In this document: positions 18,312 to 22,587 of the stretch, one piece after another | Position numbering within the stretch: position 1 is the stretch's first letter | How the letters are laid out: the number at the start of each line of letters is the position of its first letter | From: Candidatus Polarisedimenticolia bacterium | GTDB lineage: Bacteria; Acidobacteriota; Polarisedimenticolia; Gp22-AA2; AA152 | Direction of reading: 5' to 3' | Length of the DNA: 57,059 nucleotides | NCBI GenBank assembly: GCA_036004685.1 | Contig: DASYRE010000009.1 | Span: 1-57,059 of the forward strand | Made by a program: the position numbers and the translations under genes | The notes under the pieces: generated by a model | Database searches by the model: none | Told to the model about the DNA's origin: nothing | Seen by the model: the letters and a program-made list of their open reading frames with translations, nothing else

Positions 18312-18743
18312 TCAGGTCGGCTCCGACGCTTCGCCCGGAACGGGGCAGACTACTCCGCCCGCCGCGATTCGTCCAACCAGCGGCCGGTCCGCCTCGAGAA
18401 AATCGTACCCCGGCAGATCGGCGGGCGCGACCCAGGCGATCTTCTCGAAGGCCCGGTTCAGCGGCTCACCCGAGAATTCGCTCACCGCGAAGAAGTGAAT
18501 CTCGACTTCCGGCCCGCCGGGGTAGCGGTGGCGGATCGTTTCCACCGCCGCGAGCCGGCCGGCGGGGACGGCGATCCCGAGCTCCTCTTCCAGCTCCCGG
18601 ACCAGCGCGGAGGCGACGGTCTCGCCCTCCTTCACTTTCCCCCCCGGGAACTCCCACTTCAGCGCGAATCCTCCCCCCTGGCGCCGCTGGCAGATCAGGA
18701 TTTCGCGGGAGCGCCACAGGATTGCCGCCGCCACCCGGATCAC
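18312..18743 (-). CDS. Nudix hydrolase, MutT-like
   Basis: A 143-residue Nudix pyrophosphohydrolase, of the type that sanitises oxidised dNTPs such as 8-oxo-dGTP. The complete Nudix box GX5EX7REUXEEXGU is present at residues 35-57, beginning GGKVKEGE and ending RELEEELGI. The preceding WEFPGG and N-terminal AAAILWRSREILICQRR fit MutT. Start is GTG 18743, which overlaps the TGA of the membrane protein gene (GTGA); a second GTG at 18734 is possible. The substrate preference is an inference from similarity. Confidence 0.9.
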   Translation of the reverse strand: MIRVAAAILWRSREILICQRRQGGGFALKWEFPGGKVKEGETVASALVRELEEELGIAVPAGRLAAVETIRHRYPGGPEVEIHFFAVSEFSGEPLNRAFEKIAWVAPADLPGYDFLEADRPLVGRIAAGGVVCPVPGEASEPT

Positions 18744-19276
18744 CGGCCGGCCCCGCGGGCGAGCCGCCTCCGCCACGCCTCGCCCAGGGCGTCCACTTCC
18801 GCTTCCCGCCGGCGGCGATCGAGACGGACGAGGCTCACGCCCGGTCCCGCCGGGACGACTCTCAAGGCGGTGCCGAGCCGCTTCAGGATCAGCCTTCCCC
18901 CTTCCCATGCCGTCTCGATGCCGCGCTCCTGGCAAGTCTCGGCGAGCGACTCCGCGACCCGCGCCGGCCGGGTCCCCAGGACGACCCAGGTGTCGCGCCA
19001 CGCGGCGCCGAGCGCCGCGAGCAGCGCCGCAACGCCGGCGGGGACCGGGAGCGCCGGGATTCCCGCCGGAAAGACGGCGGCGTCGGCCAGGAGGACCGCC
19101 GCGAAGAGAAGGTGGACCGAAGCGAGCCGGGCGCCGGGAAGCAGCAGGATCCTGCCGCGCAGGAAAGGGGAAGCGAGCCCCAGGAGCCAGAGAGCCAGGT
19201 AACCGCCCAAGAGCCACCAGCCGCCCATCGCCGCTTTCCCATCCGGACCGCAGGAGCGTTCGGACATGCCGTTCAC
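18740..19276 (-). CDS. membrane protein of unknown function
   Basis: A 178-residue protein with about three hydrophobic segments in its first half (WWLLGGYLALWLLGLA; SVHLLFAAVLLADAAVF; GVAALLAALGAAW). A soluble, Arg-rich C-terminal domain of about 80 residues (GTALRVVPAGPGVSLVRLDRRRREAE in pieces) looks strand-rich. No family recognised. The GTG start 19276 makes a GTGA overlap with the stop of the zinc-finger peptidase gene; ATG 19267 is an alternative. Coupling suggests that it works with the secreted DA1-like peptidase, perhaps as a membrane partner. Confidence 0.65.
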   Translation of the reverse strand: MNGMSERSCGPDGKAAMGGWWLLGGYLALWLLGLASPFLRGRILLLPGARLASVHLLFAAVLLADAAVFPAGIPALPVPAGVAALLAALGAAWRDTWVVLGTRPARVAESLAETCQERGIETAWEGGRLILKRLGTALRVVPAGPGVSLVRLDRRRREAEVDALGEAWRRRLARGAGR

Positions 19277-20379
19277 GAGCCCCGCGACCAGCCCTTGCCT
19301 CCCTGAAGCGCTTTCCTCAGGCCCGCGGCCGAGCCCTGGCCGTGCGCGATCTCCAGCGCCCGCCGGAAGCCGGCGCCGTAGGCGGGGTCCTCCGACCGCT
19401 TCATCGCCTCGATTTTCACTCTTCCCTCTTCCGTCCCGGCCTCTTCCAGAAGAAGGTAGGCGGCATACTCCGCGGATCCTTCCGCTTGATCGGGAGGCAG
19501 GTCGCTCAGGTCATGCAGCTGCTGCCAGACGTGCGCCAGCTCGTGCGCCGCGACCCCCGCGAGCAGCCAGTCGGGGACCCCGGTCAGCAGAGCGACGCTC
19601 ACGCGCCGGCTCACCGCCCTGCCGGAGCGGCGAAACTCGCCGACGGTAATGCCGAGCTCGTTGCCGACGAAACGGCCCGGGGAGAGCCGCCGCATCAGAT
19701 GGTCGCGGTCCACCAGCTCCCAGCTGAAGCTTCCCGGGGGCACGGGGAAGATCTCCTGCAGCCGCACGCGGACCCGCTCCAGGATGGCCGCCACCTCATC
19801 ACGCCGGGAAACCGCCCGGCGGGCGCAAAGCGCGCAGATGCGGATTCCGTTGGCGGTGCTCAGGAAGCTGCCGTGCGTCGTGGAAAGAGCCATGACGCGC
19901 CCGCAGAAGGGACACAGGCTCTCCTTCCCATGTCGTGCGTGGAAGGCGTTTCCCCAGCCGTCTTCCAGGTACGACTTTTCCAGAGGCTCGCCGCAGACGA
20001 CGCAGCGCACCGCCAGCCCGCGGTGGCAGGCGGGATGGTACTTCTTTCCGGAAGCGACGATGTAGGTGCCCTCAATCGGCTTTCCGCAGGCGTCGCAGCG
20101 GGGCTGCGCCGACTCCCGGTAACATTCCTCGTGATAGCTCTTCCCCTCGAAGTCGATGCGCGATCCCAAGATCGCTTTGCCGCAGGCCGCGCAACGCGGC
20201 GCGCGGTACTGCTCGTAGCACTCGCGATGGTAGGCCTCGCCCTGATCCTCGATGTATTTCCCTTCGATCGACTTCCCGCAGACGGCGCAGTGCAGCCGGT
20301 CCTCGGCGGCGGTTTCCGTGAGGACGGGGAGCGGCAGAAGGAGGCCAAGGAGGAGGAGCCCGAGAAAACGCCGGCGCAT
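19273..20379 (-). CDS. secreted protein with four LIM-like zinc fingers and a DA1-like metallopeptidase domain
   Basis: A 368-residue exported protein. A signal peptide (1-24) is followed by three exactly spaced 32-residue units, each C-x2-C-x16-H-x2-C (Cys pairs at 31/34, 63/66, 95/98; His 51, 83, 115). A fourth, altered unit follows (Cys 126/129, His 147/150, Cys 156/159), then another CALC. The C-terminal half has AAHELAHVWQQL (HExxH near residue 278) and, 20 or so residues on, AEGSAEYAAYLLLEE. This is the gluzincin arrangement seen in plant DA1 peptidases, which also pair LIM with HExxH and EG. I infer an extracytoplasmic zinc peptidase. Substrate unknown. It starts 8 bp after the pyruvate kinase stop. 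Confidence 0.82.
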   Translation of the reverse strand: MRRRFLGLLLLGLLLPLPVLTETAAEDRLHCAVCGKSIEGKYIEDQGEAYHRECYEQYRAPRCAACGKAILGSRIDFEGKSYHEECYRESAQPRCDACGKPIEGTYIVASGKKYHPACHRGLAVRCVVCGEPLEKSYLEDGWGNAFHARHGKESLCPFCGRVMALSTTHGSFLSTANGIRICALCARRAVSRRDEVAAILERVRVRLQEIFPVPPGSFSWELVDRDHLMRRLSPGRFVGNELGITVGEFRRSGRAVSRRVSVALLTGVPDWLLAGVAAHELAHVWQQLHDLSDLPPDQAEGSAEYAAYLLLEEAGTEEGRVKIEAMKRSEDPAYGAGFRRALEIAHGQGSAAGLRKALQGGKGWSRGS

Positions 20380-20387
20380 ACCGCGCC

Positions 20388-21851
20388 TCAGGCCCGGCGC
20401 CGGACGGGATGGGCCGGTTTCCCGACCTGGTGGATCTTCATCATGTTGGTTCCCCCCGGATACGAAGTGCTTCCCGACACGATGATGACCCGATCGGAGC
20501 GGGACAACAGGCCGCGCTCCAGCATCACCCGCTCCCCTTCCGCGAGCATGGCGTCGGTGTCGTGCGCGAAGCGGATCTTGACGGGAGTCACGCCCCAGTA
20601 CAGCGCCATCTCCCTCTCGACCGAGTCCTGGAACGTCAGGGCGATGATCCGGCAGGCGGGCCGTTGCTTGGAAAGGAACCGGGCGGTCCGGCCGGTCTGG
20701 GTGTAGACGGCGACCGCGGCGGCCCGGGAATCGAGCGCCGCCTGACTCGCGGCGTGCACCACGGCGTGCAGGTCCTCCTCCTTCTCCGGATCGAAGGGGG
20801 CGGAATGCGCGGTCACCAGGCCGCTGGCCTCGGCCTCGCGGATGATCGCGTCCATCATCCGGACCGATTCGACCGGATAGCGGCCGGTGGCGGTCTCGCC
20901 CGAAAGCATCACGGCGTCGCTGCCGTCGAACACGGCGTTCGCGACGTCGGAAGCCTCCGCCCGGGTCGGGCGCGGGCTGTCCATCATCGACTCCAGCATC
21001 TGCGTGGCGGTGATCACCACGGCCCGCTCGTGGTTCGCGCTCCGGATGATCCGCTTCTGCAGGACGGGAACCTCCTGCGGCGAGATCTCGACCGCCAGAT
21101 CGCCGCGCGCGACCATGAGCCCGTCGGCGTGCGCCAGGATCTCATCGAGGGCCTCGACCCCTTCGCGACGCTCGATCTTCGCCACCAGGGGAAGGCAGCG
21201 CCCCTGGCGCTCCATGGCGGTGCGGGCGCGCACCAGATCGCGGGCCCGCTTCACGAAGGAGAGCGCGATCCAGTCGGCCCCCTGGTCGATGGCGAACCGC
21301 AGATCGGCAAGATCCTTGGAGGTCGGAGAGGAGGCGGCCATCGGAGTCCCGGGGAGGTTGATCCCCTTGTGCTCCGACAGGATGCCGCCCACCAGGACCC
21401 GGCAGAGGATCTCGGTCCCCTGCACGCGCCGGACCTCCAGCTCCATGTTGCCGTCGTCCAGCAGGATCCGGCTGCCGCGCGCGACGTCGCGGGGCAGGTG
21501 GCGATACCGCGTGGAGATCAGGCCCTTGCGGCCCGCGACCTGGCGCGTCGTCACGACGACGCGCGTCCCCGGAGCCAGGACGATGGGCGCGCCGTCCACC
21601 AGATCTCCGGTGCGGATCTTCGGCCCCGGCAGGTCGACGAGGACCCCGACGGTCTTGCCCAGGCCGCGCGCGATGCGCCGCACCCGCCGCATCCGGCGCA
21701 GATGGTCCTCCCGGGTGCCGTGCGAGAAGTTAAGGCGCACGACGTCCACGCCGGCCTGGAGGAGCCGCGACAGCGTCTCGATCGATTCCGAGGCGGGTCC
21801 GATCGTGGCGATGATCTTGGCCATGCGCGGCGGACGGCGGGCGATCGGCAT
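20388..21851 (-). CDS. pyk: pyruvate kinase
   Basis: Last step of glycolysis: phosphoenolpyruvate plus ADP gives pyruvate plus ATP. The 487-residue protein has KIIATIGPASES, VVRLNFSHGTREDH, DLPGPKIRTG, LDDGNMELEV and LVAKIERREGVEALDEI (catalytic Lys-x-Glu). VARGDLAVEI, ATQMLESM, PTRAEASDVANAVFDGSDAVMLSGETA and a C-terminal allosteric domain (VAVYTQTGRTARFLS) follow. Start chosen at ATG 21851 (MPIARRPPR), 17 bp after the previous stop; ATG 21824 (MAKIIATIG) is also possible. In an operon after the SirB1-like gene. Confidence 0.97.
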   Translation of the reverse strand: MPIARRPPRMAKIIATIGPASESIETLSRLLQAGVDVVRLNFSHGTREDHLRRMRRVRRIARGLGKTVGVLVDLPGPKIRTGDLVDGAPIVLAPGTRVVVTTRQVAGRKGLISTRYRHLPRDVARGSRILLDDGNMELEVRRVQGTEILCRVLVGGILSEHKGINLPGTPMAASSPTSKDLADLRFAIDQGADWIALSFVKRARDLVRARTAMERQGRCLPLVAKIERREGVEALDEILAHADGLMVARGDLAVEISPQEVPVLQKRIIRSANHERAVVITATQMLESMMDSPRPTRAEASDVANAVFDGSDAVMLSGETATGRYPVESVRMMDAIIREAEASGLVTAHSAPFDPEKEEDLHAVVHAASQAALDSRAAAVAVYTQTGRTARFLSKQRPACRIIALTFQDSVEREMALYWGVTPVKIRFAHDTDAMLAEGERVMLERGLLSRSDRVIIVSGSTSYPGGTNMMKIHQVGKPAHPVRRRA

Positions 21852-21867
21852 CGGCGGCGATGGGCTC

Positions 21868-22587
21868 CTAATTGAGCGCTGCCTCGATCTTGCGGATGGC
21901 GGAAAGTGAGCTGAGAGTCTGCTCTTCGCCGGGGGCCAGGACAAGCAGCATCGCCACGATCCGGCGGCCGCGCCCGAGATCCCTCCGGCGCAGGTGGATC
22001 TCGCGGAGGTTCGTGAGCATCCGGATCAAGATCTCCCGGGGGCCGGCGTCGGCGAGGAAGGCCGGCGGAAGCCGGTTCTCGTTCTTCCTCAGGACCTCCT
22101 CGGCCGCTTTCGCCCCGAAGAGGGTCGACAGGCGCCCCGGCAGATCCCCGGGAAGAAGGATCTCCCCGGCGTTGAAGGGGTCGACGAACAGCTCGCGCTC
22201 CTTGTCCCGGAGCCGGAGCAGGAAGTGGCCCGGGAAGGAGACCCCCGTCAGGGGAAGAGCGAGGCGCCGGGCCACTTCGAGATACAGGACCGACAGCGTG
22301 ATCGGAATCCCCAGCTTTCGATCCATCACGTCGTTGATGTACGAATTCCTGGGATCGTAGTAATCCTCCTGGTTGCCGCGATACCCTTCCTCCCCGAAGA
22401 GAACGGCGTTGAGCGCCTCGAGGGTTTTCAGGGCGTCGCGTGAGGCCGGCAGGCGGCGCCGGGTCATGGCGGAGAGACGGTCGAACTCGGCAAGGTAGCG
22501 CGCGTGGTCGAGATCCGGATACTCGGAGCGGGCGATCAACAGAGCGCCCCGGTCGAGCGGCAGCGCCCCGCCGGGCGCGTGGACCAT
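21868..22587 (-). CDS. SirB1-type transglutaminase-like protein
   Basis: A member of the SirB1/transglutaminase-like family (protein YchA type), of unknown biochemical role. Diagnostic is YYDPRNSYINDVMDRKLGIPITLSVLYLEVARRLALPLTGVSFPGHFLL, seen in pieces across residues about 78-130. The annotated ATG 22587 has no ribosome-binding site. The family normally has ten more residues, and here the frame continues upstream as LEQVLTELQQ to a CTG at 22617, placed 6 nt after GGGAGG. The true start may therefore be CTG 22617. First gene of the minus-strand run that includes pyruvate kinase. Confidence 0.85.
   Translation of the reverse strand: MVHAPGGALPLDRGALLIARSEYPDLDHARYLAEFDRLSAMTRRRLPASRDALKTLEALNAVLFGEEGYRGNQEDYYDPRNSYINDVMDRKLGIPITLSVLYLEVARRLALPLTGVSFPGHFLLRLRDKERELFVDPFNAGEILLPGDLPGRLSTLFGAKAAEEVLRKNENRLPPAFLADAGPREILIRMLTNLREIHLRRRDLGRGRRIVAMLLVLAPGEEQTLSSLSAIRKIEAALN

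Follow-up and report, generated by a model that had tools for sequence, protein, structure and literature searches.

Does a bacterial gene for a protein with tandem zinc fingers and a gluzincin-type active site encode a counterpart of the plant peptidase DA1, and would such a protein work outside the cytoplasm? The question was raised by an ATG-initiated open reading frame in the 57,059-nucleotide stretch of Candidatus Polarisedimenticolia DNA analyzed here (the window), which is one contig of a 3.84-Mb genome. The features of the locus are collected in Table 1. The plant DA1 peptidase is latent until it is ubiquitylated by way of its ubiquitin-interacting motifs (UIMs), and it loses activity when a cysteine in its LIM-like region (Cys274) is mutated (PMC5322733).

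TABLE 1 Features of the da1-like locus, with positions in the window
Feature	Position	Strand	Basis
da1-like gene, predicted exported LIM-gluzincin, 368 aa	19273..20379	-	ORF list, Pfam, AlphaFold2 model
Signal-peptide-like N-terminus, residues 1-25 (MRRR, hydrophobic core, TAA)	20305..20379	-	Inference from charge and hydrophobicity rules
Zinc unit 1, C31-x2-C34-x16-H51-x2-C54	20218..20289	-	Motif scan
Zinc unit 2, C63-x2-C66-x16-H83-x2-C86	20122..20193	-	Motif scan
Zinc unit 3, C95-x2-C98-x16-H115-x2-C118	20026..20097	-	Motif scan; best Pfam LIM stretch, residues 95-137
Zinc unit 4, C126-x2-C129-x17-H147-x2-H150; first half of LIM-like pair	19930..20004	-	Motif scan, alignment
Zinc unit 5, C156-x2-C159-x22-C182-x2-C185; second half of LIM-like pair	19825..19914	-	Motif scan; invariant in 36 relatives
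Gluzincin (MA-clan) peptidase domain, residues 191-368	19276..19809	-	Fold match, PF12315
Active site, HELAH (279-283)-x16-E300-G301; H279, E280, H283, E300	19477..19545	-	Motif scan, alignment
YGxGFR motif, residues 334-339, possible catalytic Tyr334	19363..19380	-	Conservation; catalytic role inferred
Orphan gene for a 178-aa membrane protein, overlapping da1 at GTGA	18740..19276	-	ORF list, relative search, sister loci
mutT-type Nudix gene, directly after da1 in three sister genomes	18312..18743	-	Pfam, locus comparison
Pyruvate kinase gene (pyk), upstream of da1, conserved neighbor within the family	20388..21944	-	Pfam, locus comparison

Motif scanning confirmed that three CxxC-x16-HxxC units lie exactly 32 residues apart; when the mature sequence was shuffled 200,000 times with its composition kept, three units of this form never appeared. 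The original prediction had counted four fingers, the fourth of them altered. The fourth unit does differ (CxxC-x17-HxxH), but all four of its ligands (C2H2) are in place. Another unit, of C4 type (CPFC-x22-CALC), had been overlooked, which brings the number to five. The linkers between successive units are 8, 8, 7, and 5 residues long. Units 4 and 5 form a LIM-like zinc module directly preceding the peptidase domain, and the HELAH and EG motifs follow the fingers as had been described.

Against Pfam, the protein scored 47.2 bits for LIM (PF00412; curated cutoff 22.9, E = 2.6e-12, three stretches) and 28.4 bits for DA1-like (PF12315; cutoff 25, E = 1.3e-6). PF12315 was also matched by all 36 aligned relatives, which upholds the proposed kinship with DA1. 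The DA1-like domain order, LIM-type fingers and then HExxH/EG, was upheld as well. The number of fingers N-terminal to the LIM-like module varied in this alignment, but AHExxH, EG, and YGxG were invariant, as were the module cysteines; at the level of single residues, C126, H279, E280, H283, E300, G301, and the YGxG glycines did not change. Among 80 loci, HExxH followed by EG after 15 to 16 residues was found in 67 and YGxG in 75.

The plant DA1/DAR proteins (Arabidopsis DA1; PF12315) share the order of LIM-type fingers, LIM-like module, and HExxH plus EG peptidase, and the plant active site, HEMMHX15EE (PMC5322733), corresponds to HELAH-x16-E in the window protein. In contrast to plant DA1, which has one canonical LIM domain, the window protein carries three half-LIM units, is predicted to be exported, and lacks UIMs: none was detected in a profile search (E ≤ 1), and no stretch beyond the signal and the fingers could accommodate one. 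Given this lack of a UIM and the predicted location outside the cell interior, the plant ubiquitin trigger would not carry over, and activation by ubiquitin is not expected.

An AlphaFold2 model built from the alignment had a mean pLDDT of 93.6. Its residues 191 to 368 matched gluzincins, with Z scores of 10.7 for lugdulysin (M30), 10.4 for LTA4 hydrolase, 9.9 for ACE, and about 9.2 for M1 peptidases; the predicted C-terminal fold is thus that of a gluzincin (Z 9 to 10.7 to M30, M1, and M2 members). These enzymes share the peptidase fold and the HExxH plus Glu arrangement, but they are only 8 to 19% identical to the window protein and have no LIM array. When the finger half was modeled alone (pLDDT 94.2), LIM proteins were its only Foldseek matches at E ≤ 1e-3, in keeping with LIM-like fingers. 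Structural Z scores (VIA) for this half reached 5.1 at most (TES), with several LIM entries at the top; such low values are expected for a flexible array in which finger orientations differ. Two outcomes had been named beforehand as contradicting the original prediction, another fold for the C-terminal half and fingers unlike LIM, and the model thus gave neither. No solved structure of any DA1 was found.

Canonical LIM domains (PF00412; PINCH, paxillin, TES) share the CxxC-x16-HxxC units and were the top sequence and structure matches. Their two units are joined by 2 residues, however, whereas the window linkers measure 8 (units 1 to 3) or 5 (units 4 and 5), and the protein fails the canonical two-unit pattern. 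Because of the 8-residue linkers, units 1 to 3 are better named LIM-half fingers. The canonical consensus, including the 2-residue linker, was found in 19 relatives, all of them exported. Some exported relatives also gave higher DA1-like scores (48.9, 39.3, and 39.2 bits for L024, L034, and L023), compared to 27.2 bits for the Roseiflexus relative, and L024 and L034 matched nearly the whole LIM model. The profile scores hint that the exported forms come closest to plant DA1 in architecture; this is only a lead, as the make-up of the Pfam seed may matter.

A bacterial counterpart of DA1 is already known: similarity of DA1 to Roseiflexus proteins was noted by Dong 2017 (PMC5322733), citing Burroughs 2011. 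The Roseiflexus form, which was recovered in our scan of named genomes, has the same peptidase domain and a LIM-like module, but it has no signal and two zinc units, compared to an export signal and five units in the window protein. Full-text searching of the open-access literature brought up no account of a bacterial DA1 that is exported, and no experiment on any bacterial DA1-like member was found. What we did not find described is thus an exported DA1-like branch, many of whose members have a canonical LIM domain; absence from the open-access literature is not proof of novelty. We tentatively raise the idea, for which the odds are somewhat short of even, that a widespread extracytoplasmic branch with folded LIM fingers, in the periplasm or at the surface, is the closest bacterial match to plant DA1 in architecture, rather than the cytoplasmic Roseiflexus type. 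If true, DA1, which has a key role in setting the size of plant organs, would have a broad bacterial background in which its core of LIM-like module and peptidase works without ubiquitin. This would offer a simple system for studying how the peptidase is activated, and LIM-type zinc fingers would have a clear case of functioning outside the cytoplasm. A widespread branch of the DA1 family apparently acting there is a useful addition to the known bacterial relatives.

The da1-like gene was found in 6 of the 149 genomes of a phylum search, namely the window's own, three sister genomes (53 to 58% identity, whole-genome search), and two more distant ones. Three further PF12315 matches from this search were set aside; two had no fingers and represent a different peptidase, and for the third no finger-bearing ORF was obtained. 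When the C-terminal alignment was used to scan named genomes, at least 107 relatives came up, a sample biased by the query pattern; 80 of them were kept. Among the matches listed were Acidobacteriota, Zixibacteria, Ignavibacteriota, Latescibacterota, Calditrichota, Bacteroidota, Omnitrophota, Planctomycetota, Chloroflexota, Bacillota, Myxococcota, and others. No plasmid relatives were found, and viral contigs gave two weak partial matches only. In an unrooted tree of the bacterial sequences, the location label (exported or cytoplasmic) switched only three times. The window protein and its sister-genome orthologs made up a fully supported set within a larger, mostly exported clade, in which a cytoplasmic Bacteroidota/Myxococcota group was nested. 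In two Bacillota proteins of about 1300 residues with N-terminal membrane segments, the DA1-like peptidase domain forms the end of the chain, behind a long central stretch that on visual inspection resembles a helicase.

It is unusual for zinc fingers to be folded outside the cytoplasm, which counts against an extracytoplasmic location. With members labeled manually on the basis of their sequences and a hydrophobicity scan, and signal cleavage judged by simple rules, an export-type N-terminus was present in 47 of 75 scored members and absent in 28. The hydrophobic segment could instead be an uncleaved anchor, with fingers and peptidase facing the cytoplasm. That is the compartment in which LIM cysteines normally stay reduced, and the 28 signal-less relatives are cytoplasmic; such a placement also agrees with the intracellular roles, as partners of membrane-associated peptidases, that Burroughs is said to have given prokaryotic LIM domains in 2011. 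However, across 44 exported N-termini, mean net charge was +1.59 before the hydrophobic core and −0.34 after it, and the N-in/C-out direction prevailed 37:2 (P = 1.3e-7, n = 44, an optimistic value since the members are related). Positive charges before the core and not after it place the C-terminal part outside. Furthermore, the core is short, an AxA-type site often comes after it (25/44), and three relatives carry lipobox motifs typical of lipoprotein signals. We consider the anchor unlikely, and the signal peptide of the original prediction, with export of the protein, is supported by the charge asymmetry.

A protein that has kept the fold without catalysis, as a zinc store, chaperone, or structural scaffold, would fit the lack of a known substrate or partner and the housekeeping genes that neighbor da1 in the window; retention of HExxH, the EG glutamate, and the YGxG motif across phyla speaks against it and makes it very improbable. 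Least probable of all is a disulfide-rich extracellular module without zinc sites, which predicted export and the many CxxC pairs would suit, but which conflicts with LIM profile scores well above the cutoff, with a third ligand that is His in about half of the units and a fourth that is Cys, His, or Asp, and with an odd cysteine count in 29 of 41 mature proteins. The odd counts and the His and Asp ligands favor zinc over an all-disulfide arrangement, and, taken with the positive-inside rule and the three lipoprotein signals, these sequence traits support zinc fingers outside the cytoplasm.

Probably, the window protein is a stand-alone extracytoplasmic (secreted or periplasmic) DA1-like zinc endopeptidase with a LIM-type docking or regulatory array. 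Its domain make-up, fold, intact catalytic residues, and export-type N-terminus were shown by computation; zinc loading, peptidase activity, and a docking or gating role are what we infer. A Sec-type signal would carry the protein across the inner membrane, and in the C-terminal domain H279, H283, and E300 would hold the catalytic zinc, E280 would act as the general base, and Tyr334 might stabilize the transition state. Units 4 and 5 would be a family-wide structural or regulatory module packed beside the peptidase, probably needed for activity as in plant DA1. The extra units 1 to 3 would most likely serve as a docking site for a protein substrate or partner, or as a gate to the active site. 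Against this extracytoplasmic peptidase stand the noncanonical linkers of units 1 to 3, the low Z scores of the finger half, and the lack, among 80 loci, of a conserved partner gene pointing to a substrate.

In the window, the gene order is pyk, da1, the 178-aa membrane gene, mutT, and a flavin reductase gene. The membrane gene has GTGA overlaps at both ends, on the da1 side and on the mutT side; its GTG start overlaps the da1 stop codon, so the translational coupling that had been described is indeed present. Its conserved pairing with da1, also envisaged, is unsupported, because a search of 59 related genomes detected no relative of the 178-aa protein and, in the three sister genomes, pyk and mutT flank da1 and the membrane gene is missing from the locus; a conserved partner role was accordingly rejected. 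Taken as a whole, the original interpretation was right in part. In the order-level relatives in which pyk was found, neither da1 nor mutT lay within 1.5 kb of it. No widely common neighbor of the exported members emerged from the 80 loci (domains named by reading the sequences), with an ArsR-type regulator or a penicillin-binding protein common to small groups only. A link to defense systems was discarded, as PADLOC gave no match.

Some relatives have neighbors of other kinds. In six Bacteroidales loci, cytoplasmic DA1-like genes adjoin genes for vWA-domain proteins and PP2C phosphatases, and in several a Ser/Thr kinase gene as well, which recalls TerY-P type cassettes; a phospho-signaling context for this signal-less branch is possible. 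In two Anaerolineales loci, the genes flanking the DA1-like gene encode an FHA-ABC transporter fusion and vWA-type proteins. In four Zixibacteria loci, it is followed by tandem genes for proteins of about 880 residues that resemble Ser/Thr kinase-TPR proteins in appearance.
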